A stretch of 64,000 nucleotides of DNA from Tetraselmis striata. Taxonomy: Eukaryota > Chlorophyta > Chlorodendrophyceae > Chlorodendrales > Chlorodendraceae. Below, in pieces: positions 5,129-43,850 of this stretch. The DNA is taken from the NCBI GenBank assembly GCA_006384855.1, contig VCJN01002623.1, positions 29,664 to 93,663 on the forward strand. The letters are read 5' to 3'. Below the pieces are notes generated by a model, which worked only from the letters and a program-made list of their open reading frames with translations, was not told where the DNA came from and did no database searches. The stretch's first letter is position 1. The number at the start of each line of letters is the position of its first letter. The position numbers were made by a program, and so were the translations under genes.

Positions 5129-8100
5129 CTACGACGCAGACGAGTCCTCCGCTGCCGGCGCCGTCACCTGGGGCTGCGCCGCTGCGGGCGCCCCGGGCCG
5201 CTTGCTGCTGCTCCGCTTGCGCGGGGCCGGCTTTGTGAGGAAGTAGCTCGGCACCGGCGGCGCCGCGGGCTGGCGGACACCCGGCGGCAGCGGCTCGGGC
5301 GGCGACGCCCGCGCCTCAGCCGCCGCCGCCACCATGGTGGCTGCGAGCCTGCCGGCGCCCGCCAGCCGCTCCCCCTCGGCACCGATGGACGCCCACAGCT
5401 CGTCGCTGCCGCACATTGCCCTGCGCGCAGTGGCATCCAGCAGGCCAACATGGAGCTGAGCTACACGCCAAATGAGGCCCATGTCAACGGCGGGGGGGGG
5501 GGGGGGGGGGGGGGTCCTAGGAGGAACATGACCGCCGGGCATATGAGGATGCAAGCGCGGCAGTTAAATAGAGTACACAATGGAAAAGAAAAAGAACACA
5601 ATCGAAATGCATTGATGATTTGCCTTTTCTTGAAAGAAACCTAACATTCAGTCGTGTTTAGTCCATTTAGTCGTTTTGCGAATCGATTTGGAAAGCACTG
5701 AGTACATTTTATTAGATTTGCGAATCGATTTGGAAGCAAAGTCCGCCCCGGGACATCGGCCGAAGCCGCCCCAGCACTGGACCTCTTGCGCCAACTGCAG
5801 TCGTAGGTAGGCCTGGCGTAGCCCGTAGACCATTGCCTCATTCGAACCCCGAGGGGCTAATGCATCAACCGGGTAAACCCAGGACACGCCGGGACGATAT
5901 TGCCGAAAATACATCGGCCAGGAATCGATACCCGGACCTCTCGCGTACGAGACGACCGCTCAACCGAGCGGACAAGGGATGTACCTTCTAAGTTCGATTA
6001 ATACAAGGACAGGTACCTTTTGATTTCGTATTATTCCCCATTTTCAGGAAAAAGGTTACGTACATCGTTTTAAATTAGACAGAATTACAGGAATGCGGAC
6101 CGACGCACTACGATAAGATTACGTCAAGAATTTCTTTGAGTAATTTCTCGTCTTAGTCCTTCCTCCCGTCGGTATGTTAGTAAAATACCGGTAAATAACC
6201 GGGTACCCCGGTAACTACATTACCGGCTAAAATAACTCGTATTTATTACTAGCGCGTAGGTCGCGGAAATTTCAAACGCCGATGCCTGGCCGCCGTGTTT
6301 AATTTGCCACTCCTCTAGCGTTTTTCCCATTGTTATTGTATTCCGCTTATCTTTATTCTTGTCACTCTTATTATGGCCTTATTGATGAAGTTATAATTCC
6401 ATCGTAGTTTATTGTTTGACGCGGTACTGAGCATTACGCATGTGACGCATGATCATTGACGATGTCTAGAAGTACAGCAGCACTGTTTTATTAAATAAGA
6501 CTGTCGGAAATGATAACCTGCCCGCCCTGCCTGGGGCCAAAGATAAGCGGAAATATAGCGGACCTACAGCGGGATCACAGCGGGCCTTGTTATAGATTGC
6601 TGGAAACCCCAATTTGTGGATTATTAAAACGATTTCTACAGGGTGAGTCCGCACCCGTACCCACCCTCTTTTCCCGGGGCCTGACCCACCTGACCAGCAT
6701 GTCGAAGGAGACGCACTGCTTGGCGTCGTCGGCGGCGTCCAGCAGCGGCAGCATGATGGCGCCCGGTGGGCTGGTCCAACCCGCCTCCTCCACCAGCAGC
6801 CGCACCTCCGCCATCACCTCCTTCACGGCGCTCAGGTGCACGTCTGATGGGGCCATCGGGCGACATTCAACCGGGGTCGCGGGTCGAAGACAGACATGAG
6901 CTGTTTTGCACCGCCGACTCGGGCATTATGCGCTATATTTGCGGTGTGCCGTAACCACGCTTTGGGTGCGCGGTACATTTTCACCCCCCCCCCCCCCCCC
7001 CCCCCCCACCGTGTGAAGAGAGAAAATCGCATGCATCTTTAAAAATGTAAGTATAAACCATGAACACCACACGGATCGTCCGACTCAGTGCAGCAATAGA
7101 ATCGTTATTTTATTGGACCCGCAATCTCACTAAAAATTGTACAGCGGGTATTCTCATGTACAGTAAGTCAGTCAGCGCTACACACGCTCAGTGTTAATCA
7201 CGGATGCTATTCACGGACGATGATGGGCCACCTCCGGTTTTCCCACATATATAATCGTAGAGGCTGAATCCTCCTAAACCTTTGGCCTATTCATCCAAAC
7301 AAAACCAGCAATTCTTACTGTTTGAAGCCGCCGTGACATCGAATCCGGCGGCCGTCACCCGTCACCCGTGAAACTTATCAGTGAGACGCTCACAAACGCA
7401 GTAGTTTAAGTAGAGCAGTCGTCCTATGTCCTGTCCGCGCATCAGTGGTACCTCACTGCTGCCCTGCGACTCGTGGGTGTCTTGCGGCCCGGGCGATGGA
7501 GTTTTCAAGTCTTGTCATGGACGACCAGCCAGGCCGGCCGAGCTTTCCCGCAGCGACTAGTGCTGCATACAGACTCATACGAAGGGGTCCATGACAACGC
7601 CGGTGAGGTGACACGGCGGGTCACCACACTGGCTGACTAACCGCGCTTGGTGGCGAAATCTCCGTCCTCGCCCACCCCAACCACTTTGTTCTGATACACT
7701 TCCAGAGGAGCACAGTTTTCCTCCCTCCGCGAGGGGTTCATACACGCTTATATGTACTAGCTAGCGCGTGGGTGGCAATCCTTTTTTTCCAGGCGGTGAC
7801 GGCGAGCCGTAGCGTGTTCTCACCCTTCTAGCGCATTGCGTGTCACCGCTACAACACGCATAGGAAACGCGTAGCATCGAAACCGCGTAAAAGCGGGGAT
7901 TGCCGCCTAACCAGTATGACAATGGGTCGTCGCTAATTCGTGATATTCTCGTCAATCCATCCTAAGGATGACCTGACGTAAATAACGTATGCGAAGAATT
8001 CCATAATCACTGGACAATACCAGCTCAGACAATGTACTTCGCGACTTCCGAAATTGATCCGGAATCGACAATACGGCTAAGACGTAAATATCATTTTTCT

Positions 8101-15582: not shown

Positions 15583-16033
15583 AGCGCCGCCGAGGGATTT
15601 GGCGGAAGCTTGACTGACAGGCTTGACATCAAGCTTGCTGAGGCATTGCAGCCCCTTTGGCGCCCTCAGTTGCAGCCACCGCTGAGATGCAGTGGTTGTG
15701 ACGCTTATTTGCCATGGGGCGACCATTGTTTTTTTTTCTTGTAACAGGTTTTCAGCAGGACGACCCCGCGCTGGGCCAGCAATGACGTGCGGAGTGAGAG
15801 CATATCCGCGCGTCGCTCTACGCGCACAATGCCGAAAGCGGGCCGAGGAAAGTGAGGAATGGGTGTGCGCTTGATTCGGTGGGGGTGATGGGGGTATTGT
15901 TGGGGTTTCGATGGCATAGATACAGCGCACAGTGGCAGTGCGCAGTCTTGCAAGGTGTGAAGCTACTACTAATATGGGTACAGCTGCGTCTTGGTTGAGG
16001 TCATGGGGCTGCGAGCATAGCCGTCATCACGTT

Positions 16034-16343
16034 CTACTCGGACTTGTCAGTGAGCCGCACTTTGGTGGGCAGGGGGATGCCCAGGCGCTGCACGCCCTCG
16101 GCAAACTCCTCCAGGCTGATCTGCCCGTTGCCGTCCGAGTCGAGGCGGTTGAAAAAGTCCTTGATGAGGCCCCACGTCGATCGTCTGCATGTCCACCTTG
16201 TTGTCGACCAGCGTGGGGCGGAGGAACTTGTAGCCGACCGCCTCGCGCGGGAACTCCTTGCTGGCCTTCTCGGGGTTGGCGGCGTACGCGGCGCGCTCCA
16301 CCTCCCATGCCTTCCAGCGGTCCAGGCGCTCCGCCACCTGCAT
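16034..16343 (-). CDS. Small EF-hand protein, with an apparent frameshift
   Basis: A calcium-binding protein. From an ATG at 16,343 the frame reads MQVAERLDRWKAWEVERAAY and continues through FPREAVGYKFLRPTLVDNKV. The second part, in another frame, reads WGLIKDFFNRLDSDGNGQIS followed by LEEFAEGVQRLG, a complete EF-hand loop (D-S-D-G-N-G-Q-I-S-L-E-E), and ends TKVRLTDKSE. The frame changes at about 16,170-16,185 with no plausible intron there, so either a one-base indel (real or in assembly) or a recent inactivation is present. A CAG acceptor at 16,338 allows the alternative that this is the last exon of a longer gene. The order of parts resembles flagellar EF-hand proteins, but I cannot name a family. 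It lies just downstream of the isocitrate dehydrogenase gene, on the same strand. Confidence 0.6.
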
Positions 16344-16517
16344 TGCATCCGGGGCACAGAGCAAGGTCTCAGGTCTGCTGGCGTGATACAGCTGCCGTAT
16401 CGAGGCGTCCGCGGTTGCTGATGAATGTTAGTAGGGATACTACAGGTTCCAGGACAACCCCACAATGTAAAAAAGGGACTTTGCATTAGCTAGCTAGAGC
16501 GCTCAGCTAAGGCTTCG

Positions 16518-16835
16518 GGATGGGGGCTTGCCCCGACTCGCATGGCTCAAATGGGCCGATGCCCAAACGGGTAGGGCGGACCTTTCGTTGTGGTGAGTGC
16601 CGGGTATTTTGATGGCGCAGTGTTTTCGGCGGTGATCCAACAGTGTTGGAAAGTCAGTCACTGGCCTCCACTTAGTATTGTGGAATGCTTCAGCAATTTG
16701 CTTGTTGACTATAACGAACCGTCGCCTACCCAGGGCTCTCCGTAACTGGATATCTGCCTAAACTGCGCCGTCGTAGAGACACTGCAAGGGTTTCACTGTT
16801 GCCAGTCCTGTCCCCGGGGGGCAGGGGGGGGGGGG
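16518..16835 (+). repeat. A-tailed SINE-like repeat family B, long copy
   Basis: It starts at GGGCTTGCCCCGACTCGCAT and runs through GGTAGGGCGGACCTTTCGTT, TTGCTTGTTGACTATAACGA and CGCCTACCCAGGGCTCTCCG to TTGCCAGTCCTGTCCCCGGG, where a G-run replaces the usual A-tail. It matches the copy at 60,373-60,685 over its whole length. It lies between the EF-hand gene and the isocitrate dehydrogenase gene. Confidence 0.8.
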
Positions 16836-16974
16836 GGGGGGGGGAGAAGGAGAAAAGGGTAGGCTTTCCTGTTTGTCCCAGGCGCGAAAAAAAGGCCTCG
16901 ACTAAACGCTAAATCCAAATAGCACTGGGAAGCCTCATCAGACCGGGCATGTGGGTATGTCTTGGTCACACTGG

Positions 16975-19900
16975 TCAAATAGCAGGGGCCGGTCTGAGGC
17001 TGGCAGAACCCACCGCGTCAATGAACTCCTCGGTGGTGAGGCCCTCCGGGCCGCAGAGGTCTTTGGTGCCGCGGCCGGTGGCCATCAGGTGGTGGCAGAT
17101 CTTGCGCATGACGCTGGTGAACTGCACAAGCTCGCTGTCGGGACGGCCCTGGGTTGGGATCCAGGGAGGCGGGGTCAGCGTCCCATCATGCTTCACGTCG
17201 GCCGGCATACAGCGCTTGCGATTGTGGTTTGAGGGGCGCGCATTGATGGAGATCCTCGCAGGATAATACGTGCGCCACACCTCATGCGAGGCCAGGCAAG
17301 AGGGTTCCAGGGGTGCGATACCGCGAGGCTCTCGGCGTGCTGCATGGCGCCAATCATGGCCTCCACCATGCCCAGAGGGTTCAGGCTGGTCTTCTCGCCG
17401 CGCAGGTGAGCCTCCCACATGTCTGCATGAAAGAGGCAGGGTGCGGGGCACGACCGACTCAGCGCAGGGCTCCAACAGCTCCGTGGGCATGCGCCGCCTG
17501 CCCAGGTCCAACCGCCCGCACGTACCTTTGCCCTATGTAGGGCAAAGCTATGTATCAGGGTGGCCAGGGTGGGGGGGTTGGGGGGGGCACCTGCGACGGT
17601 GCCGTGGCTGGCCTCAAACTCCTTGATCATGGTGCCGTCCTTTGCCTTGCCGATGAGGTTGCTGGTGATGAAGCCGGGCGAGCGGTGCACCTGCGCAGGG
17701 TGGGCGCAGGGGGGTGTACACGTCTGAGGGCGGCTACTAGAACACAGTCTGCCCACACATGCAGCAGTGACCCAGCAGCGCAAGTCCAGAACCCTCCCTG
17801 CTCCCGCCACTTTGATGCGGCCGTCAAGTTGCAATTGTATGGGTACCAGAAAACTGCAGCACAGCTGGCTGAGGTCTTAGCTCTCATGGTGAACGCCCAG
17901 CACGGTGCATCTTGCCAAATCTTTACTCAATATAACGGTGTTGGGGCGCCGGGGGGTCTAAAGGCAATCGAGCAGCAAACCTTAGCCTAAACCAAACCGT
18001 TAATTGAAATGGGGCAAGTATTGTGCCCAGGGTCTCATATACCCTATCTGCCTAGCATGAACCCTGCGTGACTTGATGCCTCCAGCCCAGGCTAATGACC
18101 CCCCCCCCCCCCTCTCCCCTTCCTCCAAACCCGGTTACAAGTTCGCAAAAGCGGCACAAAACAGGCAACAGCCTGGCCTGGTCCCAGGCAGGTGGCGGGA
18201 GGGCTGGGGCAGAGAGGGGTGGGGCTTGCAGCCACTGGCGCCTCACCTGGGCAACCTGGTCAGTGAGCATGTCGCCATCGTAGTTGTGGGCCTGCGGAGC
18301 GCAGCCGGTACGCAAGGTAAAGCCTACGCCTGGATGCCACAGTTGCGAACAGCACGCACTGCAGGACCAGCACGCGGCGAGCCGGTTGTCGCGCGTACCG
18401 CCATCCCGAAGCCGCCGTCCGTCCAACGGATGATCTGCATTGTCGCGGCGTCGCTGATGAGATGCTGCAGGGTGCCGCCGCTGCGCTCCAGCAGGCCGGC
18501 AGCCTGCACGCAGGGCGAGGAGGAGGGGTGGGGTTGGGGGGGGGGGGGGGGACTTCAGCGCAAGGGACCTGTGAAAACTGCTCTGCTGCGCGGCTTCAGT
18601 GCGGCGTGCTGGGGGAGAGGGGGCCACCTCAAACTTGGACTTGTAGTGGCGGTCAAAGACCTCCTTCATGGCGACCCAGAAGGTCTCCTGCCACTTGAAC
18701 ACCGTCTTCTTGGTCACCACGTAGGGCGTGACACCCACCTCCAGGCAGCGCTGTGCATGGCGGGGCGGCCGTGAGGGGCAACCACGCAAAAAAAAGTAGG
18801 CAGGCAGGCATGCAGGGCAGAATGCGGGCGATGTAGCTCGGAGCTCGTGGCGGCTGCATTAACTATGCTGAGGCGAACACAGATAAGAGAGGGGGGGGGG
18901 GGGGGGGGTGCTGAGGACAGGGGGCTCACAGTGAAGAAGTGGTGCGCGAGGTCGGGCACGTTGTCGAGCGGGTTGTGGTAGGTGACAGCCACAGACTGGT
19001 TGTCGCCCATGTAGCGGTCGTCCACAACGACGATCTCCGCCTACCGCAGCCACAAAGCGCAGCCCTCGTGAGCCACATGAGACGGCTGCTGGGGCTGCAA
19101 CCAACCGGGCGGCAGGCTGGGAGGGGGGGGGGGGGGGGGGGTTAGCGGCCCACCTTGGGGTCCTTGGGAGTGAACACTGTCGCCAGACGGCCCTCGCCCA
19201 CTGCCTTCCAGCCCGCGCCATACTCGCCGCCGACAGCGTGGCGCTCAAAGAGGACGGGCTGCCGGTGCGGGCACGCAAGCAGGGGGCGGGAGACCTCAGC
19301 TAGTAGGCCCGCCCAATGGGGGGGGGGGGTTTGCCGGAGCTATGGCATGCACTTTGGGGCGTGAGGGTGGCCGCCTGGTAGAAAGCAGGAGGCCGGGGGG
19401 GGGTGGGGGGGGGGGGGGCAAGTGACGGGAGATCGTTATGGACTGCATGAGGGGAGCTGCTGCACGCTTTGTCGGCGCACCTTGTCAAAGCCGAGCTTGA
19501 TGCCCTCGATGTGGATGGTGTCGCGGCTGATGGTGATGCCGTTCCAGCCGCGGCGCATCGCGCCGTTGGGGCTGCCCCATGTCTGCAGGGGCACGACAAG
19601 GCGGCTCAGATGAGGGCCTGACCAAGCGTCAGTGCGACAGCAGCGTGCTCCCCCCCCCCCCCCCCCCCCCCCCCCCCGGGGGGCTGTGCCTCCATCGACG
19701 GGCGTGTGACGTAGTGGAGACGGCTGCTACGCCACTGGGTGCTCTACCCGCCCTTGCTGGCCCCCGTGTGGCATCATCCACCCAGTTTCCCAAGGGGGTC
19801 TTCCACTACGGATGCCGGCGCACCTATAAGAACCCGCTTTAATGCCTCAGTTTGTGCATGTCTACCACCTTCCGTTAGGAAGCTTTACTGTACTTTCGCC

Positions 19901-20377
19901 AGTGTTCCATCCAAATCGGGCCTCCTGACAGTTATGGCAGGTTACTATTCGCAGTGTTCTAATAGGCAGTGCTGTGTCAGCACACTTGGGACGGGATCAC
20001 GTTAGGCTCAGGACGGCTCGCCGGGCTGGCCCCACCTTCTTGAGGCCAAACTTCTTCTTCTGCTCGGCTGAGGGCGTAATGGTGGGCTCCTTGAAGATGG
20101 CCTTCAGCTTGGCGCCAGCCGCCACGGCGTCGCGCAGCACCTGGTCTTCCGTGTCGTCGCGCGACTTGCAGCTAAGGTCGAAGTACTCCCACTTGCTGGT
20201 GTCCACGTGCGGCTTGATCCACTTGTCCAAGATGAGGTTGGAGCAGTAGTGCGTCATCTCCTCGCCCGCGATGTACACCATCGGCGCCGCCACCATTTTC
20301 GTCTCGCTCGCAGCAGCCGAAGCGAAGCCCCGCGCCATCAGGCGCGGGGCCAGGCGGGACAGCGGTCCCACAGTCAT
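16975..20377 (-). CDS. IDH: Isocitrate dehydrogenase, homodimeric type, probably NAD-dependent, mitochondrial
   Basis: Converts isocitrate to 2-oxoglutarate in the TCA cycle. Ten exons join in phase: 20377-20036, 19582-19481, 19258-19154, 19040-18930, 18750-18628, 18503-18399, 18291-18247, 17690-17591, 17422-17322 and 17148-16975, giving 435 residues. The first 25-30 residues (MTVGPLSRLAPRLMARGFAS) look like a mitochondrial presequence. Family marks are GSPNGAMRRGWNGITISRDT, TPYVVTKKTVFKWQETFWVA, the IDH/IMDH signature HNYDGDMLTD, and IKEFEASHGTVADMWEAHLR. In NADP enzymes the cofactor loop reads GTVTRHYR; here it reads GTVADMWE, with Asp345-Met346 where Arg-His binds the NADP phosphate. This matches what I remember of the NAD-type enzyme of Ostreococcus. 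The start of the last exon is uncertain, since an upstream acceptor would add about 23 residues in frame. Confidence 0.9.
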
Positions 20378-22900: not shown

Positions 22901-22939
22901 CTAATCATAGTAAGGAACACATACATATAGGTACATGGA

Positions 22940-25900
22940 AGTGTTTTCCCCACCTTCACGAGCCGAGCCGGACGGCCGTCGTCGCGCTAGATCAGCCCCC
23001 GTCTCGAGCCACTACCGGCGGTGTTCCCGGACGTCCTCGGAGTTCGGAGGTGAAGGTGGGGAAAACAACGCAAGGCTTCTCGGATGACCCCATCAGGAAA
23101 GCGTGGAAATGAAGAAAGGTAGTCAGCGGCAGCGATTTAGCGAAGAAGTCGGCCAGGTGGGCCGGGGTAGGCGTGTAGTGCATGTAGAGGATGCCGTCTC
23201 AGTAGAGTTGGACCGCATACTGAAACCGGAGGTCAATGTGGCGTTGCGCACATGTAATTATACCATGTAGCACCTGAACGATGCATGCGCGGTTGTCCCC
23301 GCATACTTGTACCGGGGCAGCAGTGGGGTGGCTGAGCTTGGCGCAGAAGAACGCGAATAACCGCCATACATGTGCAGACCACGCAGAGCTCCACGAACTC
23401 CGCTGCGGCAGTAGACATGGCCACGCTGCCTCCGAACCTTGGATGCCTGCGGCAGGTCGTAGAGTGCCCCAACGGGATGCCAAGCCCGGTCCTTACGGCC
23501 ACAAACGAGGGGGAGGTAGTCATAGGCATAGGTATCGCCAGTGGTGAGTAGATTGCCGCGAACGATCACGCCGGCCTCGCGCTTGATGATGTTGCCATCC
23601 TCGTGCTGCGCCGCGAAGGCCCACGCCGTCCGTTGGATGACCGCTGACTCCTTGCCGCGTCGAAACTCAGGGACGTGGACCCAGATGAAAAATGCCATCG
23701 TGGTGATAGTGTTGATCTCATGGTTCATGGACTTCTTCCAGTCATCGGGGCGAGTGCTGGAGATATCCTCATGATAGTTGCGCGGCGCCGTGGACACGCA
23801 GACATTGGGTGCTGGTAGGGCGAGGGCTGTCAGTCGCGCTGAGCGGGGGCACACAACCGCCGCGATCGCGGATGCCACCAGTGTTGGGTGGTAGTCGCTG
23901 AGGTCGACATAATGGGAAGTCCATTGTGCATGTTTGCTGGTGTGAGGAGCCGACAGCGCCGTGGCGTCCCCCTCCTGATGGTGCGGAGCGTGCTGTTCGT
24001 TGTGATGTGGAGGCGGGGGCCCCTCTTGCGCCGAAGCAAGCGCCGCCGATGGCAGCATGGGTGGCGGTGCGTGGGGCCCCTCCTGCTGGCCCGAGGGTTG
24101 AAACGCGTCCATCAGGTAGTCAGCGTTGGAGAACTGAAAGGCCGGCATAGAGAGAGGCGGGGTCGTGCGCCCGGTAGCCGGGTTATGGTAGATGCGGCAG
24201 CCACTGAAGGGCCCGGGGTCGGCGAGCTTGATGGCGGCGACGTTGTTGCCGCAGTTCCGGATGTCTTGCGGTTGAGCGATAATGGTCCACAGATGGGTGT
24301 CGCGTTGAGCCGCCAAGCCGCAGGACGCCGCGCGCACGATGTTGCATGCTCCAAGTGAGGAGAGTACTTCATGTAAGGCCAACGCGTCTGGAAAATTTTG
24401 CACAATATAGCGCACTGGTGTGGGCTGAGAAGACAGGTAGAAGCGAGTGAAACCGATGACGGAGGCGAAGGCACGAGAGCGATGGTCCTGCCAATCAAGG
24501 CGTGAGCCCGTGCGTGACCATGGTTGACACGGTGTGCTTAACACGACGAGGGTGAACGGGCGCAGCCGCTCCAGCTCCGTGATGGTGATGTCGTTGATGT
24601 GCATGGGGTCCCGTCATGACAGTCCTGAAATGCTGATGGAGGCAGACGGCCCGGGCATTTGCTGCTGATGACATGTAGGTGATGTGGCCACATAGTGCGA
24701 GCCTCCGTTGATGGGTTGGCGCCGATGAACGCGTGGATGGAAAAGCCGTATTCCACCACAGCCTCCACCTCAAATGCCGATGGGCCATGGCAAGGCGAGA
24801 AGAGATGTTCGATTACCAAAGAAGAGCTTGGCATATGGAGGAGCGGGGCAGCGGTGAGTATCGCGAGCGGCGGTGGCAGGTCTCCACGTAGGGCGCCCTG
24901 CCCTGTTGAACGTCGTGGGCCGTCAGTGCCGCTGAGGTTGGGCACGCGGGTGAAGCGAGGCATAGAGGTTGAATTGGGGCGGAAATGGGCTGAGAGCGGA
25001 AGTGGCGGGCACGCCATGGGTGTGAGAACGGGAACTGGAAGTTGTCGTCAGAGTTGGAGTAGGGGACGTGCCAGGATTCATGAAATTCATCGTCTTCGTC
25101 GTCCTCGCCCTCCCCCTCCTGCGCTCCGGTGGCTGCCCCTCCTGGGGCGGTGGTGGTGGAGGTGAGCATGACGGGCAGGCCGCTGTGGTGTGGTGCCAAC
25201 GAGGACACACCCATTAACGGGTAGGCCTCATGGCATCCTCACGGCTGCTGGTCGGAGTCGTTTTTGGCCGGGTGATGTCCGTGGTGGTGATGTCCGGCCG
25301 GGGAGACGAAGCCGAATGGGTGGTGATGGCGCTACATGTCGTTGTTGTCGCTCAAGATGGGCCAATATTGCTGCCGCTGGGGCCTGTTTTGATGGTTGTA
25401 GTCGTGGCGCAGGTTGTAGGCATAGTTGTCGTTGATGTGACGCTCCGCAGGCGCGCGCTGACAGTGACCATAGCGAGGGTTGTTCATGGTGCTGGGTGGG
25501 GCGGTGTCACCCAGGAGACGCAGGCCGTTGGCATGGCGCCTGGCCAAACACTGCTGTTGAGCATGGCATGGACGGTCACACCTGATGCAGACGATGTTGG
25601 GCCTGGTGGCATATAGTTGGTCCATGGGGTCGCAGGAATTGAGGGTTGGCGTGCGGGAACGGGCGCGCTGCTGACGATGACGCGTGCGCGCCTCCATGTT
25701 ATGTCCGGCACTTTGATGGTTGCCAGCCTCTTGTTGACATTGGTTGCCGAGATGGTGGCGTCGACAATGTGATCGTATGCTGGGTGAAGTCCTGGGATGA
25801 GGTATGTAGTTGATGGCCACGTACTCGAATGTCCACCGGCCATGTGCCTTGCGCAACAAATTCCAGAGGTTCCGGCAGCGGCAAACGTACACCTGGACCG

Positions 25901-27000
25901 GCTCATTCGGGAGCTGGCCCGCTGTGATTTCTTCCTCCAAGCGCTTGCGCTCCTCTATGGCAGACCCCTACCTGGAGTTCAGTAAACAGGGCCGTCCAGG
26001 CCGCCTATCCACACTTCCTGGAGTCCATGCTGATGCTGTCGACGATGGCCAGTGCCATGGGATAATTCGCTGTCGCGTGGCGCAGGGCTGCCAGAAGAAT
26101 GAGCTGCTCATGGTGGGTGCTTTTGCCCTTGGTGGTGTCCAGGTAGCCGGCGCTGCCGAGGGAGATCTTGATGGCCTGAGCATTATCACGGGTAGAGATG
26201 CTCTGGTCCCACACGGGGACCGTCGCGAGGTCGAGTGTCGGCTTTATTGCAGACGGCTTGATCCACTGGATGTCACTGGAGTCACTGTAGTCTGACGCAT
26301 CACCGTGTAGGCTGAAAGCGTCTTCAGAACTGGTATCACTGTCACTAAAGTCAGGCGGCGGTGGGTCGCTCTTGGTGGTGGGTCGCCCCAGGGTCCTTCT
26401 TGACCGCACTCCTCCCAGCTAGATTAGGCAGAGGGGTGTTCATCATGCCGGTGGTGATGCTGGTAGACATGGTGGAAGGATGGCGCACTTATCCTGGAAG
26501 ATGTATATAATTGTAGGGGTGGGCGGGTGGCAAGAAAAGTCTCGTCGCACGTCGCCGTCGATCGTCGAAAGCTGTCGAGGGTCGAGATACAGTCACGCAG
26601 GTTGAAGCCTCTGGCAGGCGTCGAGCACGGGGAAAGACGTCGAACCAAAGGAGAGGGCCCAAAACCTGTCGGAGGGAGATTGTCGAAGTGATGGCTGAGT
26701 GGCACTGTTAGCACTGATGGAAAGAGAGTCGGCGAGAGTAGTCGGCGTGCATGCGTCGAATCGCGTCGAGTGCCAGCAAGCGAGATGCAAACTGGGAAGG
26801 CAAAGGGCTGCTATGAGCCGTGGGCGATGGACGATAGGTAGTCGCTGTCGCCGTGGTGATGGCTGAGTGGCACTGTCACGAGAGAGAAAGGGTGAGTCGG
26901 AATATTGCTAGAAAAGCAGTTGACTGAATTACAAGGAGCCAAGGCTGGCAATTTATACCAGCCGGCTAGGTGTCGATTAGGACGGGCACCTCTCCATCTA
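22940..27000 (-). mobile_element. Broken Ty1/copia-type retroelement carrying a DNA cytosine methyltransferase domain
   Basis: Parts read from right to left on the minus strand. A leader has a TATA-like box (TATAAATTGCC) near 26.95 kb. A gag-like region (about 26.4-25.3 kb) has a CX2CX4HX4C zinc knuckle, CIRCDRPCHAQQQC. A cytosine-5 DNA methyltransferase region (about 24.8-24.2 kb) has the motif IV Pro-Cys in LVVLSTPCQPWSRTG. A copia reverse-transcriptase region follows (DDWKKSMNHEINTITTMAFF, 23.7 kb). The RNase H end is at about 23.5-23.0 kb (GSVAMSTAAAEF, HIDLRFQYAV, PTPAHLADFFAKSL). I see no pair of matching LTRs. A 17-bp inverted repeat sits at its 3' edge. The element looks broken, with several breaks, and is old enough that no terminal repeats align. 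Copia is identified by the RNase H and reverse-transcriptase motifs; which methyltransferase subfamily was captured is not clear. Confidence 0.8.
22943..23066. repeat. 17-bp perfect inverted repeat
   Basis: GTTTTCCCCACCTTCAC at 22,943-22,959 is the exact reverse complement of 23,050-23,066, with a 90-base GC-rich spacer. It overlaps the 3' end of the copia-type element, where a polypurine tract would be expected on the minus strand (GAAGGTGGGGAAAAC). Confidence 0.8.
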
Positions 27001-27229: not shown

Positions 27230-27330
27230 CTGCTTTTTGTTTTTTCGCCCCCGGGACAGGACTGGCACCAGTGAAACCCGCCTTGCAGCGTCTACTCTAC
27301 GACGGCCGTTTGGGCGCGCTGCTAGGCGGA
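27230..27330 (-). repeat. Repeat family B, 3' fragment
   Basis: TTTTTTCGCCCCCGGGACAG followed by GACTGGCACCAGTGAAACCC and the CGACGGCCGTTTGGGC block is the reverse complement of the A-tailed 3' end of family B at 60,600-60,685. A near-identical fragment lies at 39,000-39,080. Confidence 0.8.
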
Positions 27331-32260: not shown

Positions 32261-33634
32261 CCGCGCGAGGCGTGTACGGCGCGCCGGTGGCTGCCAGGGA
32301 CCGCGCCCGTGATAGAGTTGATGTCGACATTCGACGTGTCCCAGCGCTGTCGGGAGCTCACGTGTGAATTGCGCTGCTCAGGGTAGGTGCAGCGCCGCAT
32401 TTTGTGGATGTGTCGGTGTTTGTACACACAGCCGCTGCTCTCCATTGCCCTCATCCCCGTGGGAACGAATTGCACCGGGTGTGGAACTGGGGGGGAAATG
32501 CTGCTCCTCTTTTATACGGTTGCCGACGAAGGACTTCTGGCTCTTCGAAGAGCGCCAATATTTGCCACCCAGATCGGGGTGTCGGCAAAGGCCTCTTGCA
32601 AGTGTGACGGCGTTCGTTGGCATTTTTTACTAATTAGGAACGGTGCTGTACATTTCAAAACCAATACATTACGGGTGCCGCCGCACCTAAGGATATTAGT
32701 ACTCTTACTATAAGTAGCCTCAGGTTGGGGTCGCATGCCATCACCTACAAGAACAGTCGCTATGCTTCCGATATAGTTTCGTCCACCTTTGACCTCTGGC
32801 AGGCAGGCCGGTGCTCTTATTCGCGCAGTGTTCTTATAACCATATGCCGGCACCCGCCGTAAACCAGCATACGCGAATCAACCAATCATGAAACGGCACA
32901 TGTACAACCCGTACCGAGCAGTCACGTACGGCCTATATCCCGTGTATACACAGCCTTACAGGGCAGGGCAGACTCTTGTCATTGTTCTTGTAACTGCGTG
33001 CCAAGAGTAAAACGCAGAAGGGCAGGGGATGTCAGAGGTGCACGTTCGAAAAAATGCGTTCTTCAAAGTGCGACGGCACCTGTACTCCTGTAGCCACCCT
33101 CCCCAAAAAGGCAGCTCGAGTGGGACATAATTTCAACACCTGCAGACTTTGTCATGGAGCCAGTGCATGGCGGACGGACGATGCGCGGAAGGGATGCGAG
33201 TTCATTGGGGCTTGGATCCACAGTTGTCACCTCAAATGAAGCGCCCGCGCGCGTTTTCGCTGTGTATGTGCAGCAGGGGAGGGCGGGGGGTCGAGATATT
33301 TTATTATTTTGCCATGGTGGTCATGGCCTCAGTTTTCCGTCGGGCCCAATATTTAAAAGTCGATAACCAGCACCCTCTGACCGCCCCCCCCCCCCCCCCC
33401 CCCCCCTCCTCCTCTCGACTGCCCAACAAATAACTTACTGCAATGGTGTGACCACGGAAGACGCCACAAATTTATATATCGTTGTCGCTACGACTCGCTG
33501 CTCTTTTCGGTGCATATTAATTTTCAAATCAGCAGCAGCGACGGAGCAAGTGGCGATGCATCACTATCTGCTACTAGGGGTGCCGACGCGGTTATAAAAA
33601 CACTGCGAACTATAAAAACACTGATTCTCAGATG

Positions 33635-33890
33635 AGTAGGGCGGACCTTTTGTGGTGAGCAGTGCCGGGTATTTTGATGGCGCTGTGTTTTAGACGGTGA
33701 TCCAACAGTGCTGGAAATTTTGTCACTGGCCTCCAATTAGTCTGGTGGAATGCTTCGGCAATTTGCTTGTTGACTTTGACGGAGCGTCGCCTACCCAGGG
33801 GTCTCCGTAACTGGATCGCCGGCCGTCGTAGAGACGCTGCGAGGCGTTGCCATCCCTGTTCCCAGGACGAGCGGAGAAAAGCTTACTATA
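33635..33890 (+). repeat. Repeat family B copy
   Basis: GTAGGGCGGACCTTTTGTGG, then GACGGTGATCCAACAGTGCT, TTTGCTTGTTGACTTTGACG and GCGTCGCCTACCCAGGGGTC follow the family in order and end at CCTGTTCCCAGGACGAGCGG. The 5' head of the long copies is absent. Confidence 0.8.
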
Positions 33891-34504: not shown

Positions 34505-34709
34505 GGGTGAGACAGAATTCAATAGGGTATGTCAGAAAGATGCAGTCGCTATATTGCCCCCCCCCCCCCCCCCCAGCAGAGTGTTATTCTGTATTGCACA
34601 TGTACTACCAGTTCTACTACTAGAATTGCGCCCTCCCCCCCCCCCCACCCCCCCGGGGGGCTTAACTATTCTGCAGTTACAATGCCCCGTCGCGACCTGC
34701 ACCTTGTAA

Positions 34710-34952
34710 AGTAAAGTTCGCCCAGGTCATCGACCGAAGCCGCCGCAGCAGCACTTGACCTCTTGCGCCAACCGCAGCCGTAGGCATGGCATAGCCATTA
34801 GAACGTTGCCTCATTCGAACCCGGAAGGGCTAATGCATCAACCGGGTCAACCCGGGACACGCCGGACCGGCCGATGTTGCTCTGAAAAGACGAAGCCGGG
34901 AATCGAACCCAAGACCTCTTGGATAAGAGACCACCGCTCGACCAGAATGTAC
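34710..34952 (-). repeat. tRNA-derived SINE copy
   Basis: The reverse complement shows the tRNA-like head with GGGTTCGATTCCCGGC (B box), the body with GTTGATGCATTAGCCC and the tail ending CGAACTTTACTTTAC. It is more diverged in the middle than the copies at 5.7 and 61.3 kb. Confidence 0.8.
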
Positions 34953-35324
34953 CTTGCGTAATGGGATCTCTGTGCAAGTTTGCTCCCTGTAATAGCATGT
35001 CTCCAGTCTTCGTCATGGGGCTTACGCAGTGCCGCACGGGTCATTGAGCCTTGGGAGAGTACATGGTCATTTTGTCTTCGCCACTCGGGGGGCTAGCAGT
35101 ACTGCAGAGCTCCCGTGGCCTGGCATAAACCAGTCAACCCACTGTCAAGGGGATCTGTTCGGCCTCGTGGTTGACGATTCGGCTCATAGTCATCGCCGGT
35201 TTATGAAGCGTTTTTACATGCTGAATCGCTGCATCGACGCGTTGGTCGTCGATTGATCTCGCGGGAGTATATCCGGGTTGGCGATCTGCTATGGTGCCGA
35301 CCCTTCCTTCCCGCAACGGCGGTG

Positions 35325-38082
35325 TCATTCGTACTTGATGCCCTTGCCGAGGAACAGCGCGCTGGTGAAGCCGGTGAGGCCCACCACGGCCGCGCCCGCC
35401 ATGCCGACCGCAAAGGGTTTGAGCCCCACGCCCTTGAAGACGGAAAAGCTGGTGCTGAGCCCCACCGCCGCCATGGCGGTCGCCAGCAGCTGGCCGGAGG
35501 CGTCGGCGCCGACGGCGGCCGTGGCGGCCTTCCACTGCGCCTCCGACATCTGCCCAAACCCGGCGGTGGCGTCGCCCGCGGAGCGGAGGCCCGCCATGGC
35601 GAGGAAGCCGAAGATGAAGGGCGGGAAGAGCGTGGTGAGGGGGGTGCGCGCGGTGGCGCCCGCGGAGGCGTGCATGTAGGTGAGCGCGGGGATGACGGCG
35701 GCGAGGCACACGTTGCGCATGAGCTTGGTGACGGCCGCCACCTTGAGCGCGGTCTCGTCCTGGTACATCTGCGCGTACGTCAGGCCGGCGCCCATGACCT
35801 GCGAGGTGTCGTGGATGGCGGTGCCGAGGAACAGGCCGACCTGCTCCGAGGTGTCCAGCAGGTGGTGCGCGGCCACGGGGTAGGCCAGCATGCCAAACAG
35901 GCCAAACGCCACCACGTTGGCCACCGCGTACGCCACCTCCTGCTGATTGGCCTGCGCCGGAGGGACACACCCGCGAATCAGCCGCCCGGTGCCCACGGCA
36001 ACCGGAGGGGCCCAACCATATCAACGTCAACGTATTAAATACCTACAAACGACAGGCCTGTTGCTTTAGACGGTGTTCCAACAGCGACGGAAATTCTGTC
36101 ACTGGCCTTTAATTAGTCTTGCAGAATAGAATGCTTCGGCGGTTTGCTTGTTGACTATAACGGAGCGTCGCCTACCCAGGGCTTTCCCTAACTAGATCGC
36201 TGCCTAAACGGTCGCCGTAGAGACGCTGCAAGGGTTTCATTGGTGCCATTAGTCCTGTCCCGGGACGGAAAAAAAGCAGGCGTGTCGCCGGGGTTGTGCG
36301 TAAGTACTGTTACACTGCACTGCTGAACTTAATTACGCCGACCCAGTTCAGCGACTCTGAGGAATCACAGAATCCTTGGCGGGGGTAATTATATTTACAA
36401 GTATAATTACAATCACAATTATAATTAAACTCATACAAATTATGACTGTAACTATAGCTATAATTATGATTATAATTATACTAAGGAGGGAAGAGAGCCC
36501 CCCTCCCTGAGCGTAACTCAAGAATGCAACGGAAGTACCCCAGTTAAGCTGAGTTTGACATGTAAACGCAGCCCAAGCTGCCACACACAGATGTCATGGC
36601 CAAAGTTGCCGTAAACTGCCGGAAGTCCATGTGAGTTTGCCACTCAGATCCCTAGGTGGCTAAAAGGCATCACCCGGCCCCGATTGGGCGCCTGGCTGTA
36701 GGTTTGTCTTAACTTATAAACGTAATAATTTATTGAAGTTGGTTTGGCTCCAAATGGACTTCCGCACACCCTGGCATATAACCACACAAGAGCCTCATAG
36801 CGGGGGGGGGGGGGGGGGGGCACTTGGATGGCGGGGGCGAGCGCGGTGATGGCGGTGACGCCGCAGATGCTGGTGCCCGCGGCTGTGAGGGAGCCCAGGC
36901 GGGCGGGCAGCCCCAGGCGGGCGTTGAGCCAGAGCACGGAGCCCAGGCCGGCGGCGATGGAGGCCGCCACCACCGGCACGCCCGCGGCCCCCAGCTTCAT
37001 CACCTCCACCGCGCTCAGCTTGGCGCCCACGCACACGATGCCGGCCTGCAGCACCGCCTTGGAGCAGAAGCGCAGGCCGGGCTGCAGCACAGGCAGCGCG
37101 GAGACGGGGAGTGCCAGGTTGTTGATGCCGAGGCCCAGCAGGATGGCCACCGGGACCGCGGAGATTGGGCTCGGGCCGTCTGCGCAGGGCGGTGACGCGC
37201 CGCGTCGTCAGGTGGCTCGCAGATGGCGGCATGCACCACAGCGGGGCGAAGGCCATGGTATGGTGGGTGCTGCCAGCGCCGTGCCAAAGCATGGCAGACG
37301 GCGCCATACATATAATATATAATGGTCATGTGCAAGTATGAATTTCTTTGTTTCTGTATTCATTATGATTAATATAGAGAGCACAGTCATGAAGTCTGGA
37401 TGGCCAAATGTAGAGGTATATAATACATCCCCGTCGATACAGGGTGTACATATATTGCGATTATAGACGGATATAGGGTAATGATGGTAATAATAGGCTA
37501 GCTACATATAGCTACATATAAGAACGGTATATGTTAGCTTTGGTGGTGGTGCGCTTTCCCTGCCTAACACAGTTGGCCTGGCGGCAGTCCGGCGTTTACG
37601 GTAGCTCTCGTAGTGCCCTCTCCGTCCCCGTGTCCCATACATGAGCCGGGCGGGGCGGGGCGGCGCGCACCTCCCAGGCCCTGCGCCGCCATCATCGCCC
37701 CGCCCAGCCACTCCGCACCGACAGCGCCCACCTGCGCCACGGCGCCCGCCAACGCCAGACCCGGCAGGATCTTCGCCGCCCGGGTAAGAAACCCGCTGTT
37801 GTCTCCCGCCGGTGGAGGTTTTGGGGGCACCCCGCCGCTGGGTGCCGCCGATGGCGCGGAGGAGGGAGAGGAGGGCTGCTTGGCCGAGGACCCCGTGGCA
37901 TGCCGCCGACCCACCGAAATCGGGACGCCGCCCGGCCTACGCCCGTGAGCGGCGACCTTCCGGCACGTCGATGGGGCCGCCAGGGGAGGCGTCGGCAGCA
38001 GCGCGACGGGCCCGCCGTGGGCGGTGGGGCGAGGCGCGCGGGCAAGGCCGGACAGCCCGCGGCGGAGCGCGGCGGCGGACAT
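35325..38082 (-). CDS. YeiH/UPF0324 family membrane protein (putative sulfate exporter family)
   Basis: A polytopic inner-membrane transporter family, best known from bacteria, that is thought to export an anion such as sulfate. Three exons join in phase: 38082-37671, 37179-36824 and 35951-35325, giving 464 residues. Residues 1-95 are Ala/Arg/Ser/Pro-rich with few acids, as in organelle transit peptides. Membrane segments follow: ILPGLALAGAVAQVGAVGAE, VAILLGLGINNLALPV, LQAGIVCVGAKLS, GVPVVAASIAAGLGSVLWLN, the conserved GTSICGVTAITALAPAI, then VAYAVANVVAFGLFGMLAYP, GLFLGTAIHDTSQVMGAGLT and, at the end, GLTGFTSALFLGKGIKYE. GTSICG and AIHDTSQV are hallmarks of the family. An upstream in-frame ATG at 38,118 would add 12 residues. 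The second intron holds a family B repeat. A TGTAA poly(A) signal (minus strand, 35,214-35,218) lies about 110 bases after the stop. Confidence 0.88.
36055..36275 (+). repeat. Repeat family B copy with A-tail
   Basis: GACGGTGTTCCAACAGCGAC, TTTGCTTGTTGACTATAACG, GAGCGTCGCCTACCCAGGGC and TCCTGTCCCGGGACGGAAAA follow the family in order and end in an A-run. It is inserted in the second intron of the exporter gene, antisense to it. Confidence 0.85.
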
Positions 38083-38729: not shown

Positions 38730-38999
38730 GGCACCTAGCGCTCACACTTGCTAGTTTACATTCTCCAGCGGGAATTCGAAAATCAGCCGTGTGCGCCTTG
38801 CAACCCCACTGGATGGCGCGGAACCAGATGGTGCCACATGGTGGACACTTGGATTTTCTTTGGGCTCTCTGGTGGTAGTGCCGGTGGTGCGCTTTGCCAT
38901 CGACACCCACGTCTAGGAGATGCCCCAAAATGATGTAAGCGTAATCGAGGCAACATCCGCATCAAAAGCAAAACTACTTTCGAATTGCGGTAGCGTGAT

Positions 39000-39080
39000 T
39001 TTTTTTCGCCCCCGGGACAGGACTGGCACCAGTGAAACCCTTGCAGCGTCTCTACGACGGCCGTTTAGGCAGCAATCCAG
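39000..39080 (-). repeat. Repeat family B, 3' fragment
   Basis: TTTTTTTTCGCCCCCGGGAC, AGGACTGGCACCAGTGAAAC and GCAGCGTCTCTACGACGGCC form the reverse complement of the family's A-tailed end. Confidence 0.8.
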
Positions 39081-40244
39081 TAGCGTAGCGTGATGTTATC
39101 GCGATGATATTATATATATATATATATATATGCTCATAGCTAGTGGCCTCGGGTACAGTGGTACACCTCGTACATCACGTAGTACTCATAGCAAATATAT
39201 ACATCGTAATTGTCACACTGTGTCCCTCATCTCAAGTGAGACCAACTCTCAGGTTGAGTTGGGAAACAACGCCCTCCTCTAGCTCCGGAATCGGGAACAC
39301 ATGCTCCGAAACCAATGTAACAATTGTGGCAACATCCGTCTCAACAACATCACGCTCGCCATGCGGGCAACCTGATATCGCAAATACACTCGTAGTCACC
39401 TCATATATGTACCCATCGTAGTTACACTTTCACGCTACTAGTAACATGTGTATGGACATCGTAATTTACACATAATAAGAGCCGTCCACATGGGGTTGCC
39501 AGATCCCGCGAGCGTCGTCCTCGCCGGCAACCGCACCCGCAGTTGGCTGAAAGCCTCGAACACTGGTTGCGTATGGCTGACGGGATGTGCACTATACGGG
39601 GGTCTGGGGCTGCAACTTTGTGCAGCTTATTCTGCACGACACCGGCATGGTTGTTATTAGCGTCTCGCATGTACAAATGGCGCTGTGGTTGCGCGGTATA
39701 TGACTGTTTTCACACCCGCCTACATGCGAACACATAACAAATATTTTTTGTGACCTGTGGATTCAAATAATTAAATGATATGGACACAGCGCTTTTGAGC
39801 CCCAAGTATTTCCGCCAGCAACCCCACATCATGCCCTGACATGAACCCTTCCAAGGGGTATATGCGGATTTTCTGTAATCCTATAAACATGTAACACAAA
39901 ATATCATTGTTTCATAGAACCTCTAGAAATGATGAAAGCATGTACATGGGTATGTTTTCTCGAAAGCATACCCTGGAACATGTTGGTTTCCCTGCAAAGC
40001 TAGCGAGCAAGAGGATCGCGAGGTGGTTGAATGAGTGCGATCATGTCCACAAGGAGGATGATTATGGGCGTGAGGACCCTCGGGTGAATGAGCTAGGGTT
40101 GGAGGTTCACGTGGGCGGCGAGCGGCCGCTACCTTTGCCTCTACCTTTTCGACGTTGTGGTATGCTGCCTGTGAACGCTTACAATTGGGTAATTACATGT
40201 TCTGCGCCCGCAGTTTCCGGTGGGGCCGGCCAAGCAGCGGCGGG

Positions 40245-42118
40245 GGCTTTATTTCGGTATTTCGGAACGCGGAGTGCGGTACGCGTAAGCACGGGAAGTG
40301 TTACGAGGTTCCTTTCTGAAAAGATCATTCGACAATGTGTTGATAATCTCACAGGGGGGCGCTTACATGGGTGTGTAGGAGAAGTCCTATCACTGAGTAA
40401 AAGCGGCGAAGACGCCGCTGCGCTCCCCGGAGCGGGCGGGCGGGAGATGCTGAAAATACTAGGTGATGTGAACAACAACCTCGGCTGTCCCCCTAGTTTC
40501 TACCGAACGCAATGCGTTTCTAGACAGCCCCGGGAGCACCCCCAGGTCTGCTGACAATTGGCCCTCCTCACGGATCCAATTACCATTTACTATTCATTAT
40601 AACTGTTCTTTTCTAATAATTCTTGATCTTGAGCTTTGTTCACCTTATTCTTCATCTCTGCAGAAAACCGCTGTGGCCCTGGCCCACAGGCCACCACCAA
40701 ACATGCCTTTCTGAGTAGATAATGAGGCAATGTGGTGGTAACCTCACAAGGGGCCGCTTACATGGGTGTGTAGGAGAAGTCCTGCCACTGAGTAACAATG
40801 GTGTCTGTGAAGACGCCGCTGCACTCCCATTGGTACAGTGAAGAGGCAGTTTAGAGGGCGGCAATGAGCCGAAGAATCTCGGTGGCATGTGCATTGAAGT
40901 GGCGAAGACGCCGCTGCACTCCCCGGAGCGGGCGGGCGGGAGATGCTGAAAATACTAGGTGATGTGAACAACAACCCCGGCTGCTCCCCTAGTTTCTAAC
41001 GAACGCAATGCGTTTCTAGACAACCCCGAGAGCACCCCCAGGTCTGCTGACAATTGGCCCCCTCACGGATCCAACTACCACTTACTAATCATTACAACTT
41101 TATTTTTGCTAATAATTCTTGGTCGTGAGCTTCTTTTGCCCCATCCTTCATCTGCAGAAAACCGGTGTGGCCAGGCCACCACCAAACATGCCTTTCTGAG
41201 GGGATCATGAGGCAATGTGTTGGTAACCTCACAAGGGGGGGCCTTACATGGGTGTGTAGGAGAAGTCCTGCCACTAAGTAACATCGGTGTCTGTGAAGAC
41301 GCCGCTGCACTCCCATTGGTCCAGTGAAGAGGCAGTTTAGAGGCGGGTGGCGATGAGCCGAAAAATCTCGGTGGCATCTGTATTGAAGTAGGCGTCCGGT
41401 GCATACTGGCGGCACGCCCAGTGCCCGACGCGTGGACGATGACCCGTGCGGACCTGTAGCGGTCCCAAAGCCACTGCGCGAGGGACTTGCGCCCGGAGTG
41501 ACTGCCGACACGGTCCAGGACAGTCGTCCGGGTGGCGGGGTCGCGGAAGGCGCGCGCGTAAGCGGCCTTGAACGCCGAGTTGAAGCCCGAGTAGGGGGTA
41601 GTGTGGAAGGTCTGGGGCCCGACGCGGGAGGACTTGGGGGCGGCCAGCAGGCGGCTTCACGCGGAGGTAGTCTTCGAGCATGTCGACCGGGCGGACAGCC
41701 AGGCAAGGCACGTGGTTGGGGATGTAGGCGAAGCACTCGTGCCGGGCGTCGACGTTCTTGTTGTCGTCCACGCGCAAGCGGATGTAGCGGTAGCCCAGCT
41801 CCCCGCGTTGAAGAGCACGCGGACAGCGCTGAGTTCCGAGTAGAACACGGCGCCGGAGCCGGACACGCGGTAGTCGCCGGTGAGCGCCGCGACGGGCTTC
41901 ATTGCGACGGAGGCACCCCAAGTTCAGGAAGGAGATGCACAGGCGCTGGTGCCTGCGGAAAGTCGACGACCGTGAGAAGCCGCGATGCAACACAGTGTGG
42001 ACTCCGGGATCCGCAGAGGGAGAATATCGGCCCTTGGCGGTGGCGCGACATTTCGGTATTTTCTAGCGCAAAGTGCGGTACGCGTAAGCGCGGGAAGTGT
42101 TTTGAGGTTCCATGCGGG
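40245..42118 (-). mobile_element. Small broken mobile element with repeated end, perhaps tyrosine-recombinase type
   Basis: A minus-strand coding relic at about 42.0-41.35 kb includes GELGYRYIRLRVDDNKNVDA and HECFAYIPNHVPCLAVRPVD, and ends near HWACRQYAPDAYFNTDATEI. The style recalls tyrosine-recombinase proteins of DIRS or Crypton elements, but I cannot confirm it. The element's end is present three times in tandem (from about 40,320, 40,716 and 41,199). A block of about 65 bases (GTGCGGTACGCGTAAGC then GGGAAGTGTT) occurs at both outer edges, near 40,247-40,312 and 42,045-42,110. It looks broken, with a few interruptions; the tandem copies differ by several percent, which suggests moderate age. 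Confidence 0.5.
40320..41390 (+). repeat. Three tandem copies of an element end (unit about 400-480 bases)
   Basis: Each copy begins with AATGTG(T/G)TGGTAACCTCACA or a close variant, followed by TTACATGGGTGTGTAGGAGA and GAAGTCCT. Copies 1 and 2 also share GAGATGCTGAAAATACTAGG, GAACGCAATGCGTTTCTAGA and CCACCACCAAACATGCCTTT. Copy 3 continues into the coding relic. Confidence 0.85.
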
Positions 42119-42119
42119 G

Positions 42120-43021
42120 GGCGAGGGGCATGACACAGCAGCGTAGACATATAGCACCCCGAGCAACATTATTGACTATCGTGCTGCATACAATCCACAT
42201 ACCGTACCTAACATAAATAGCTGTGTCACACTATACATTTTAACGTGTCGAAAACCAACACTGCAAACGTTCAATGCAACACCGCTGAATGTGTGTCGCT
42301 GGAGTACTTTTCCGGCAACGTGCCGTACCTTGATACATAAATAAAACATTGTCGTAGCGTCGGAACACTGTCGACTATTTCACAAATGCAAAGAGAATGC
42401 TGTGTGCGGAAAATCAGCATCCTGCTCTGAGATGCTTTGGAAAACTATACGCCAATTACACATGCATAATTTAGGGGAGGGTCCACATGTGTGTCAAATC
42501 CCATATGCCCAGACACCCAAAACCCAACCCCTAACCCCCAAACAACCCTAAACAATCCGACCCTAAAACCCCAACATATGGATCCTTGCATATTTTATAT
42601 GGATGATTGTGGTAAATTTGTGGTAAACAACGCTGGAAGGGTGGCAACACACGGCTAGGGCAGGCCCCGTCATTCAAGTTGTTGTCACCTACGCGCTAGT
42701 ATGGATGCGTGTGGTAAATACGCCAAAGACCAAGTCCATGCAGAGCTGTATTAAATGAGCGCTGCTGCGGCGCTGCGCCAATGGGTACTACTGGTACCCC
42801 GTCCAGCATGATGCTGCAAGGCTGCAGCGCGTGCGACGGAGCGCTACGTGTGCCTGTATGATGTAGATCTGTATTATCCCCGTGTGATGGTGCCATTCAT
42901 CGTGTGGCGGCCATCAGGGCAGAAGGACCCAGCGTGGCTGCCTACTACCTTTCCAGGCTTATACCCCCTTCTGTCCTGGCTTGAGCCACGAATGCGTATT
43001 CCAGCACCGTGGGGCTCCTGC
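42120..43021. other. Intergenic stretch, no gene seen
   Basis: Apart from the telomere-like array and a family C repeat near 42,630-42,705 I see no coding or structured feature. Confidence 0.5.
42515..42577. repeat. Degenerate telomere-like array (CCCTAAA type)
   Basis: CCCAACCCCTAACCCCCAAA, ACAACCCTAAACAATCCGAC and CCTAAAACCCC are variants of the plant/green-algal telomere unit, in an interior position. Single units also occur at 48,588-48,604, 60,780-60,800 and 63,960. Confidence 0.6.
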
Positions 43022-43557: not shown

Positions 43558-43850
43558 CGGCAATACGAATACGAATACGAATACGAATAGGAATACGGAT
43601 ACGAATACAAATACGAAACGAAACGAATAGAAACGAAACGAATAGAAACGAATAGAAACGAAACGAATAGAAACGAATAGAATAGAATAGAAACGAATAG
43701 AAACGAAACTAATAGAAACGAAACGAATAGAATGGAAACAAATAGAAACGAATAGAAACGAATAGAAACGAATAGAAACGAATAGAAACGAATAGAAACG
43801 AATAGAATAGAATAGAATAGAATAGAATAGAATAGAATAGAATAGAATAT
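43558..43850. repeat. Pentanucleotide/decanucleotide satellite
   Basis: The array passes from GAATAC units through mixed GAAACGAATA units to pure GAATA units. The change in unit along the array suggests repeated local expansion. It lies just upstream of the cyclic-nucleotide-binding exon. Confidence 0.95.

Follow-up and report, generated by a model that had tools for sequence, protein, structure and literature searches.

A probable dead Ty1/copia relic carrying a C5-methyltransferase fragment in a contig of Tetraselmis striata

Retrotransposons that carry a DNA methyltransferase (DNMT), the class of enzyme normally used for their silencing, have been described in two lineages (PMC5890265): in Symbiodinium, long interspersed nuclear elements (LINEs) and DIRS elements bear cytosine-5 methyltransferases (C5-methyltransferases), and in Klebsormidium a Gypsy element does. 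According to the accessible text of that report, the enzymes of the DIRS and Gypsy elements are located in the Pol open reading frame (ORF), and the Copia elements of Symbiodinium are without any DNMT domain. Here we describe a locus in a window of 64 kb from contig VCJN01002623.1 of Tetraselmis striata (the window is the whole stretch analysed, its first letter being position 1). The minus strand at ~23.0-25.8 kb of this window is probably a dead Ty1/copia relic that still carries a fragment of a C5-methyltransferase.

SymbioDIRS-Dnmt3 and SymbioLINE-Dnmt likewise hold a C5-methyltransferase in a retrotransposon coding region, for SymbioDIRS in the Pol ORF together with the reverse transcriptase (RT), but they are DIRS and LINE elements whose enzymes belong to the Dnmt3 family or to an orphan lineage, and they are present in many copies with key residues conserved (PMC5890265, accessible text). 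KnitGypsy-Dnmt3 of Klebsormidium nitens is, like the relic, a long terminal repeat (LTR) retrotransposon with a C5-methyltransferase in its Pol ORF; it differs in being a Gypsy element with a Dnmt3-family enzyme, conserved key residues and a streptophyte host (PMC5890265, accessible text). Sola1 of Ectocarpus, too, is a mobile element of an alga and brings a DNA methyltransferase along, but as far as the accessible part of PMC12477816 describes it, it is a DNA transposon with ParB and an accessory gene for an N4-cytosine or N6-adenine methyltransferase. An earlier reading of the same DNA, made from the letters alone and called here the sequence-only reading, had named captures by retrotransposons in dinoflagellates and charophytes, and the published cases, LINE and DIRS in Symbiodinium and Gypsy in Klebsormidium, agree with it in outline (PMC5890265, accessible text). 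Aside from one sentence, the open-licence literature searched contained no description of a C5-methyltransferase in a Copia element, which is a weak negative; that sentence, in the accessible part of PMC12344493, attributes DNMT3 to LTR elements of the Copia type and to DIRS elements, citing the same 2018 work, and is at odds with the Gypsy that this work itself gives for Klebsormidium.

Layout of the relic

Read along the minus strand, a CCHC zinc knuckle is followed by a stretch of C5-methyltransferase, the start of a copia RT and pieces of a copia RNase H (Table 1). The sequence-only reading had placed a C5-methyltransferase between the zinc knuckle and the copia RT and RNase H, on the same strand and within 22940-27000. 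This arrangement held, with a match to PF00145 (E=6.5e-5) and co-linear matches to a copia hidden Markov model (HMM); its upper limit of 27000 did not, since nothing recognisable lies beyond 25.97 kb at the upstream side of the element. An acidic open stretch located there, which may be an N-terminal part of gag, gave no Pfam family at E<=10.

The methyltransferase fragment and the RT start are read in one frame, which from stop to stop is the window's longest; none of 200 whole-window shuffles reached 451 codons (maximum 398). The element's pieces are otherwise spread over all three minus-strand frames, and a complete Pol is not present. Because the methyltransferase and the RT start share this frame, and because the place in Pol is comparable to that in SymbioDIRS-Dnmt3 and KnitGypsy-Dnmt3, we regard a fusion as the best reading: rather probably, the locus is what remains of a Ty1/copia LTR retrotransposon with a C5-methyltransferase in its Pol polyprotein, just before the RT. 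Capture is further favoured by homology detected through several routes, by the co-linear copia pieces on one strand and by the zinc knuckle at its expected upstream place.

Table 1. Parts of the relic, listed from upstream to downstream on the minus strand
Feature	Position	Strand	Basis
Acidic open stretch upstream of zinc knuckle, possibly N-terminal part of gag	26008..26418	-	position only
Gag-like open stretch, 211 codons	25335..25967	-	exact CX2CX4HX4C zinc knuckle at 25548-25589
Uninterrupted 451-codon frame: methyltransferase fragment and copia RT start	23261..24613	-	proline-rich linker in between
C5-methyltransferase fragment, motifs IV-VIII	24263..24604	-	PF00145, phage tblastn, custom HMM
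Copia RT start, before catalytic core	23546..23878	-	14-sequence copia HMM E=0.0087 (451-codon frame, residues 246-356)
Copia RNase H piece, other frame (GDNRACI 23280-23300, HIDLRFQ 23220-23240)	23202..23492	-	copia HMM E=0.017
Apparent internal deletion junction	23420..23470	-	by eye: RT-like GALYDLPQAS runs straight into RNase H-like KVRRQRG
End of copia RNase H (LADFFAK 23136-23156)	22995..23198	-	copia HMM E=0.38, co-linear

The methyltransferase fragment

In C5-methyltransferases, motif I binds S-adenosylmethionine, the PCQ of motif IV holds the catalytic cysteine and the ENV of motif VI the catalytic glutamate. In the relic, motif IV reads TPCQPW (24518-24535), with the PCQ and its cysteine present, the motif VI position reads QNF where the HMM has ENV (QNFPD, 24386-24400), and the motif VIII region, CGLAAQRDTHLWT at 24284-24322, is degenerate. 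Alignments to two custom methyltransferase HMMs cover ~95-100 residues, from motif IV (PCQPWS, then D.R) through motif VIII, and stop at HMM positions 165/319 and 210/360, with no match to motifs IX and X or to the target recognition domain. Thus, the PCQ motif seen by the sequence-only reading was recovered, and its later conserved blocks proved to be the degenerate motifs VI and VIII, without IX or X. A candidate for motif I in a stretch in another frame (24541..25047, minus strand), noticed by eye, is without statistical support and was set aside: the stretch had no Pfam match at E<=10, no PDB methyltransferase at E<=10 and no HMM support.

Several searches identified the fragment. The Pfam model of C-5 cytosine-specific DNA methylases, PF00145, matched residues 4-56 of the 451-codon ORF (53 residues) with 22.9 bits, passing its cut-off of 22 bits by 0.9 bits. 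An HMM built from 10 C5-methyltransferases gave this ORF E=1e-5 (next ORF of the window 7.6), and one built from 17 phage, plasmid and viral enzymes gave E=1.2e-6 (next ORF 0.95). Seven of the enzymes in the second HMM came from a scan of viral contigs for PCQPWSRxG, which returned 28 loci, eight of them with methyltransferase-like ORFs by eye; L031 was left out, as it reads like L043. The PHROGs DNA methyltransferase family matched with E=3.6e-4 (fragment) and 0.0027 (whole ORF), and NCBIfam dcm with 0.0081 and 0.057, respectively, far below the family cut-off. When the 114-residue fragment was compared by tblastn with 50,697 phage records, 90 records matched at E<=10, and 25 of these aligned over 80% or more of its length; Proteus phage vB_BPM-V3 came first (E=5e-4), with 29.5% identity over 96 residues. 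Plasmid matches numbered 24 records, the best of which (E of 0.1) is an unrelated gene.

We considered whether there is no methyltransferase here at all and a short likeness to motif IV arose by chance in a GC-rich open frame. The shortness of the Pfam alignment and its slim passage of the cut-off would agree with this, as would the phage matches, most of which lie above E=0.01, and a structure model of the fragment with five viral relatives, which is of low confidence (mean predicted local distance difference test score, pLDDT, 49.6; predicted template modelling score, pTM, 0.35). In that model, strands and helices follow one another as they would in the latter half of a C5-methyltransferase, though the confidence of the model is too low for this to count. 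A chance motif IV is nevertheless highly improbable, as the top phage match spans 84% of the fragment and continues to motif VIII, and the custom HMMs align ~95-100 residues at E-values that no other ORF of the window approaches, none being below 0.9.

The enzyme appears not to be DNMT3-like; the nearest relatives found are DNMT2 and phage enzymes, both distant. Among PDB entries, five distinct sequences matched at E<=10, four of DNMT2 type and one unrelated, and none was a DNMT1 or DNMT3. DNMT2, the tRNA cytosine-38 methyltransferase, provides the best solved-structure match (E=0.001), through motif IV and the D-R block that follows it, but only ~50-70 residues align and its motif VI is unlike that of the fragment. 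We know of no retroelement partner of DNMT2. The phage C5-methyltransferases, Proteus phage vB_BPM-V3 and others, are alike from motif IV to VIII at an identity too low to claim descent, and differ in being free-standing, in having ENV at motif VI and, mostly, QNRxRYYWT at motif VIII. The best enzyme from viral contigs (L050) ranked seventh against the fragment, after five phage enzymes and one plasmid enzyme. With ~100 decayed residues at <31% identity, there is too little to place the methyltransferase in a family tree.

This distance from all matched families, with 29.5% identity at best, raises a different explanation, in which some algal copia polyproteins have, as a standing component, a methyltransferase-like module without catalytic activity, such as a nucleic-acid-binding domain. 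The QNF at motif VI, the degenerate motif VIII and the lack of matches to motifs IX, X and the recognition domain would all suit such a module. However, the whole copy is decayed, so the loss of motifs may be secondary, and a G..D.R block together with later P and N columns is common to the fragment and five viral enzymes. (The likeness of PCQPWS to the same five enzymes is a selection effect, PCQPWS having been the retrieval pattern.) We therefore consider a standing inactive module improbable, and return to a captured enzyme in Pol as the preferred reading.

Copia parts, decay and chance

Reference copia polyproteins were obtained by searching a prokaryote genome collection for an integrase motif, which yielded eight stretches; a Trichormus bin supplied seven and an archaeon bin the eighth. 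Matches to RVT_2 establish copia in each of the two bins (best E=1.7e-81 and 4.4e-77, respectively), and we infer that these references are eukaryotic contaminants, from Azolla in the case of the Trichormus bin. Six of the eight loci entered a first copia HMM, of which L015 and L022 lie on one contig; L017 and L020 were omitted for broken or short frames. A second HMM took 14 of the 16 loci L051-L066 (longest ORF of at least 700 aa, no duplicate), most of which stem from the two bins that had supplied the first six. Viral contigs gave no further references: the RNase H motif occurred at four loci, none of them copia by eye, and an integrase motif at none.

With the 6-sequence HMM, the co-linear chain of zinc knuckle region, RT start and two RNase H pieces scores 13.8, which none of 120 whole-window shuffles reached (maximum 11.9); a separate set of 40 shuffles had a maximum of 8.9. 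Within the chain, the RT start holds DDWKKSMN (23723-23746), and tblastn aligned the copia reference L022 to the RNase H end (23297-23127) with E=0.001. The zinc knuckle reads CIRCDRPCHAQQQC (25548-25589), and no second exact CX2CX4HX4C occurs in any of the window's six frames; an exact motif arose on that strand in 3/1000 shuffles of the 2.1-kb region, and anywhere in 13/100 whole-window shuffles. Its region matches copia HMM positions 220-295 weakly (1.2 bits), and zf-CCHC_5 matches the gag-like stretch at E=0.015, below the family cut-off. The copia RT and RNase H named by the sequence-only reading correspond to an RT start and RNase H pieces, the RT comprising its first ~110 aligned residues with the YxDD core missing; of the two profile models that this reading proposed as a check, PF00145 scored above its cut-off and RVT_2 was without a match.

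Large parts of the element are gone. Between the RT start and RNase H, the HMM advances by 377 residues (positions 1138 to 1515) and the window by 231 nt, so that ~900 nt including the YxDD core have been lost; no YxDD-like motif occurs on the window's minus strand. Between the zinc knuckle and the RT start, 770 residues in the HMM compare with 1742 nt, methyltransferase included, and hence protease and integrase cannot both fit whole. Counted from stop to stop, 363 ORFs of the window reach 80 aa; a Pfam scan of the 300 longest (E<=0.01) found no integrase, and primer-binding-site-like matches (2 vs 4.47 expected) showed no excess over chance. The copy cannot act: it has no RT core, no motifs IX and X and, at motif VI, no catalytic glutamate. 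It would have died by internal deletions, affecting protease and integrase, the RT core and the C-terminal part of the methyltransferase, and by frameshifts.

A number of observations weigh against a captured methyltransferase in a copia Pol. The copia matches are each weak on their own, and in the region they are limited to gag, RT and RNase H positions, with the integrase undetected. RVT_2 had no match in the focal ORFs or in the same 300 longest ORFs at E<=0.01; it also found none in 14 control genomes and one virus record. An LTR pair was not found between 20.5-23.15 and 25.9-29.5 kb, where the best flank match was 22 bp (E=0.21). On the methyltransferase side, active-site residues have been lost, only one of the 20 phage matches listed is below E=0.01, and none of the six copia reference polyproteins holds a methyltransferase. 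The CpG observed/expected ratio is 0.91 in 22901-26500 vs 0.92 in the whole window, and so is not depleted.

Some of these difficulties also bear on a third explanation, that a methyltransferase pseudogene or retrocopy was inserted in, or joined by deletion to, a dying copia element, the shared frame being accidental. A single element copy with a methyltransferase, itself decayed, was seen in the 64-kb window, where the 17-sequence HMM found no second methyltransferase; a frame of 451 codons was reached in 3/1000 shuffles of the 3.6-kb region 22901-26500; and both of these count against capture and for a chance neighbourhood. The internal deletions of the copy join distant parts, and the window has many repeats. 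A search for other copies in viral contigs with the 451-aa ORF produced three pattern matches, none confirmed. Yet a chance neighbourhood requires several coincidences, with the methyltransferase lying before the RT, in the same strand and frame, and a zinc knuckle upstream, and we consider it unlikely. Capture into Pol remains the reading that we prefer.

Surroundings and meaning of the relic

A second copia remnant lies at 58073-58355 on the plus strand, where RNase H pieces in two frames matched the 14-sequence HMM (E=0.012 and 7.5e-5); it is also the top copia chain of the whole window, above that of the relic, scoring 27.6 with the 6-sequence HMM. No methyltransferase HMM match was found near it. 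A YMDD at 42596-42607 (plus strand) was dismissed as a second RT, there being no copia HMM match at that position. Two repeat families run through the window. One, of SINE size (short interspersed nuclear element; ~300 bp, ~79-91% identity), is found at 16512-16819, 33623-33865, 36062-36280 and 60370-60689 and inverted at 38999-39088 and 27240-27325, with one inverted piece ~0.8 kb upstream of the relic. The other (~250 bp, ~78-94% identity, both orientations) is found at 5734-5987, 34697-34956, 46789-46967, 57794-58015, 61253-61505 and 2670-2733, with one copy stopping 58 bp short of the second copia remnant. There is also a local duplication within 40311-41394 (40401-40904 again at 40897-41394, 88.6% identity), and a long run of short imperfect repeats at ~43560-43880 translates to alternating FYS/FVS or RNE/RIE strings.

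Beside the element, from ~20.3 kb downward, is a many-exon gene for NAD-isocitrate dehydrogenase (NAD-IDH; ~16000-20310, minus strand). The first exon aligns with 6lkz from Phaeodactylum (E=2.6e-36) and 6ixl from Ostreococcus (5.7e-33), and a later stretch at 18055-18858 matches the same two enzymes (2.3e-23 and 1.3e-17, respectively); further exons are visible by eye down to ~17 kb. The identities of 6lkz and 6ixl are taken from the accessible text of PMC7460673. This type of NAD-IDH is common to diatoms and prasinophyte green algae, and thus excludes neither. An EF-hand is encoded at 16106-16141 (minus strand), ~1 kb past the last visible NAD-IDH exon; the accessible text of PMC7460673 reports IDH with a C-terminal EF-hand from stramenopile algae only. 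If it belonged to the gene, this EF-hand would point to a stramenopile and away from a chlorophyte, a hint that weakened on checking. For the ORF of this EF-hand, calmodulins match first and the Phaeodactylum IDH (6lkz) is absent among the best 60 of 165 matches, and an overlapping ORF in the next frame matched nothing in the PDB at E<=0.01. Elsewhere, an exon has a cyclic-nucleotide-binding motif at 43334-43378 (minus strand), and the Pfam survey found guanylate cyclase, RabGAP-TBC, SGL and two PF03601 ORFs. Rfam and tRNA scans of the window found none.

For the element in its working state, we suggest the following course. A once-active copia lineage would have captured a methyltransferase into Pol before the RT, in a position that would correspond to the stretch after the integrase in copia Pol. 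The Pol-linked enzyme could then have methylated fresh cDNA of the element, ahead of integration or during it, as has been proposed for the DIRS elements of Symbiodinium (PMC5890265, accessible text). In the accessible text of the same report, CpG depletion is confined to the SymbioLINE elements. The absence of a deamination footprint from the relic neither proves nor excludes self-methylation. That an algal Ty1/copia lineage independently captured a non-DNMT3 C5-methyltransferase, DNMT2-like, phage-like or bacterial, into its Pol polyprotein ahead of the RT and applied it to cDNA of its own is a tentative proposal, about which we are more doubtful than confident.

In conclusion, the relic is a possible addition to the known DNMT-bearing retrotransposons, as a Copia element with a non-DNMT3 enzyme, if other copies exist. 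As one dead copy, its value is that of a pointer toward intact relatives in the host genome. If the proposal is true, it would add one more independent capture and a third host lineage for such retrotransposons, and would be the first Copia case described in detail. A Copia element bearing another kind of methyltransferase would mean that capture has recurred in different classes of retrotransposon and with different enzyme families, and comparison could then be used to test what it is for.

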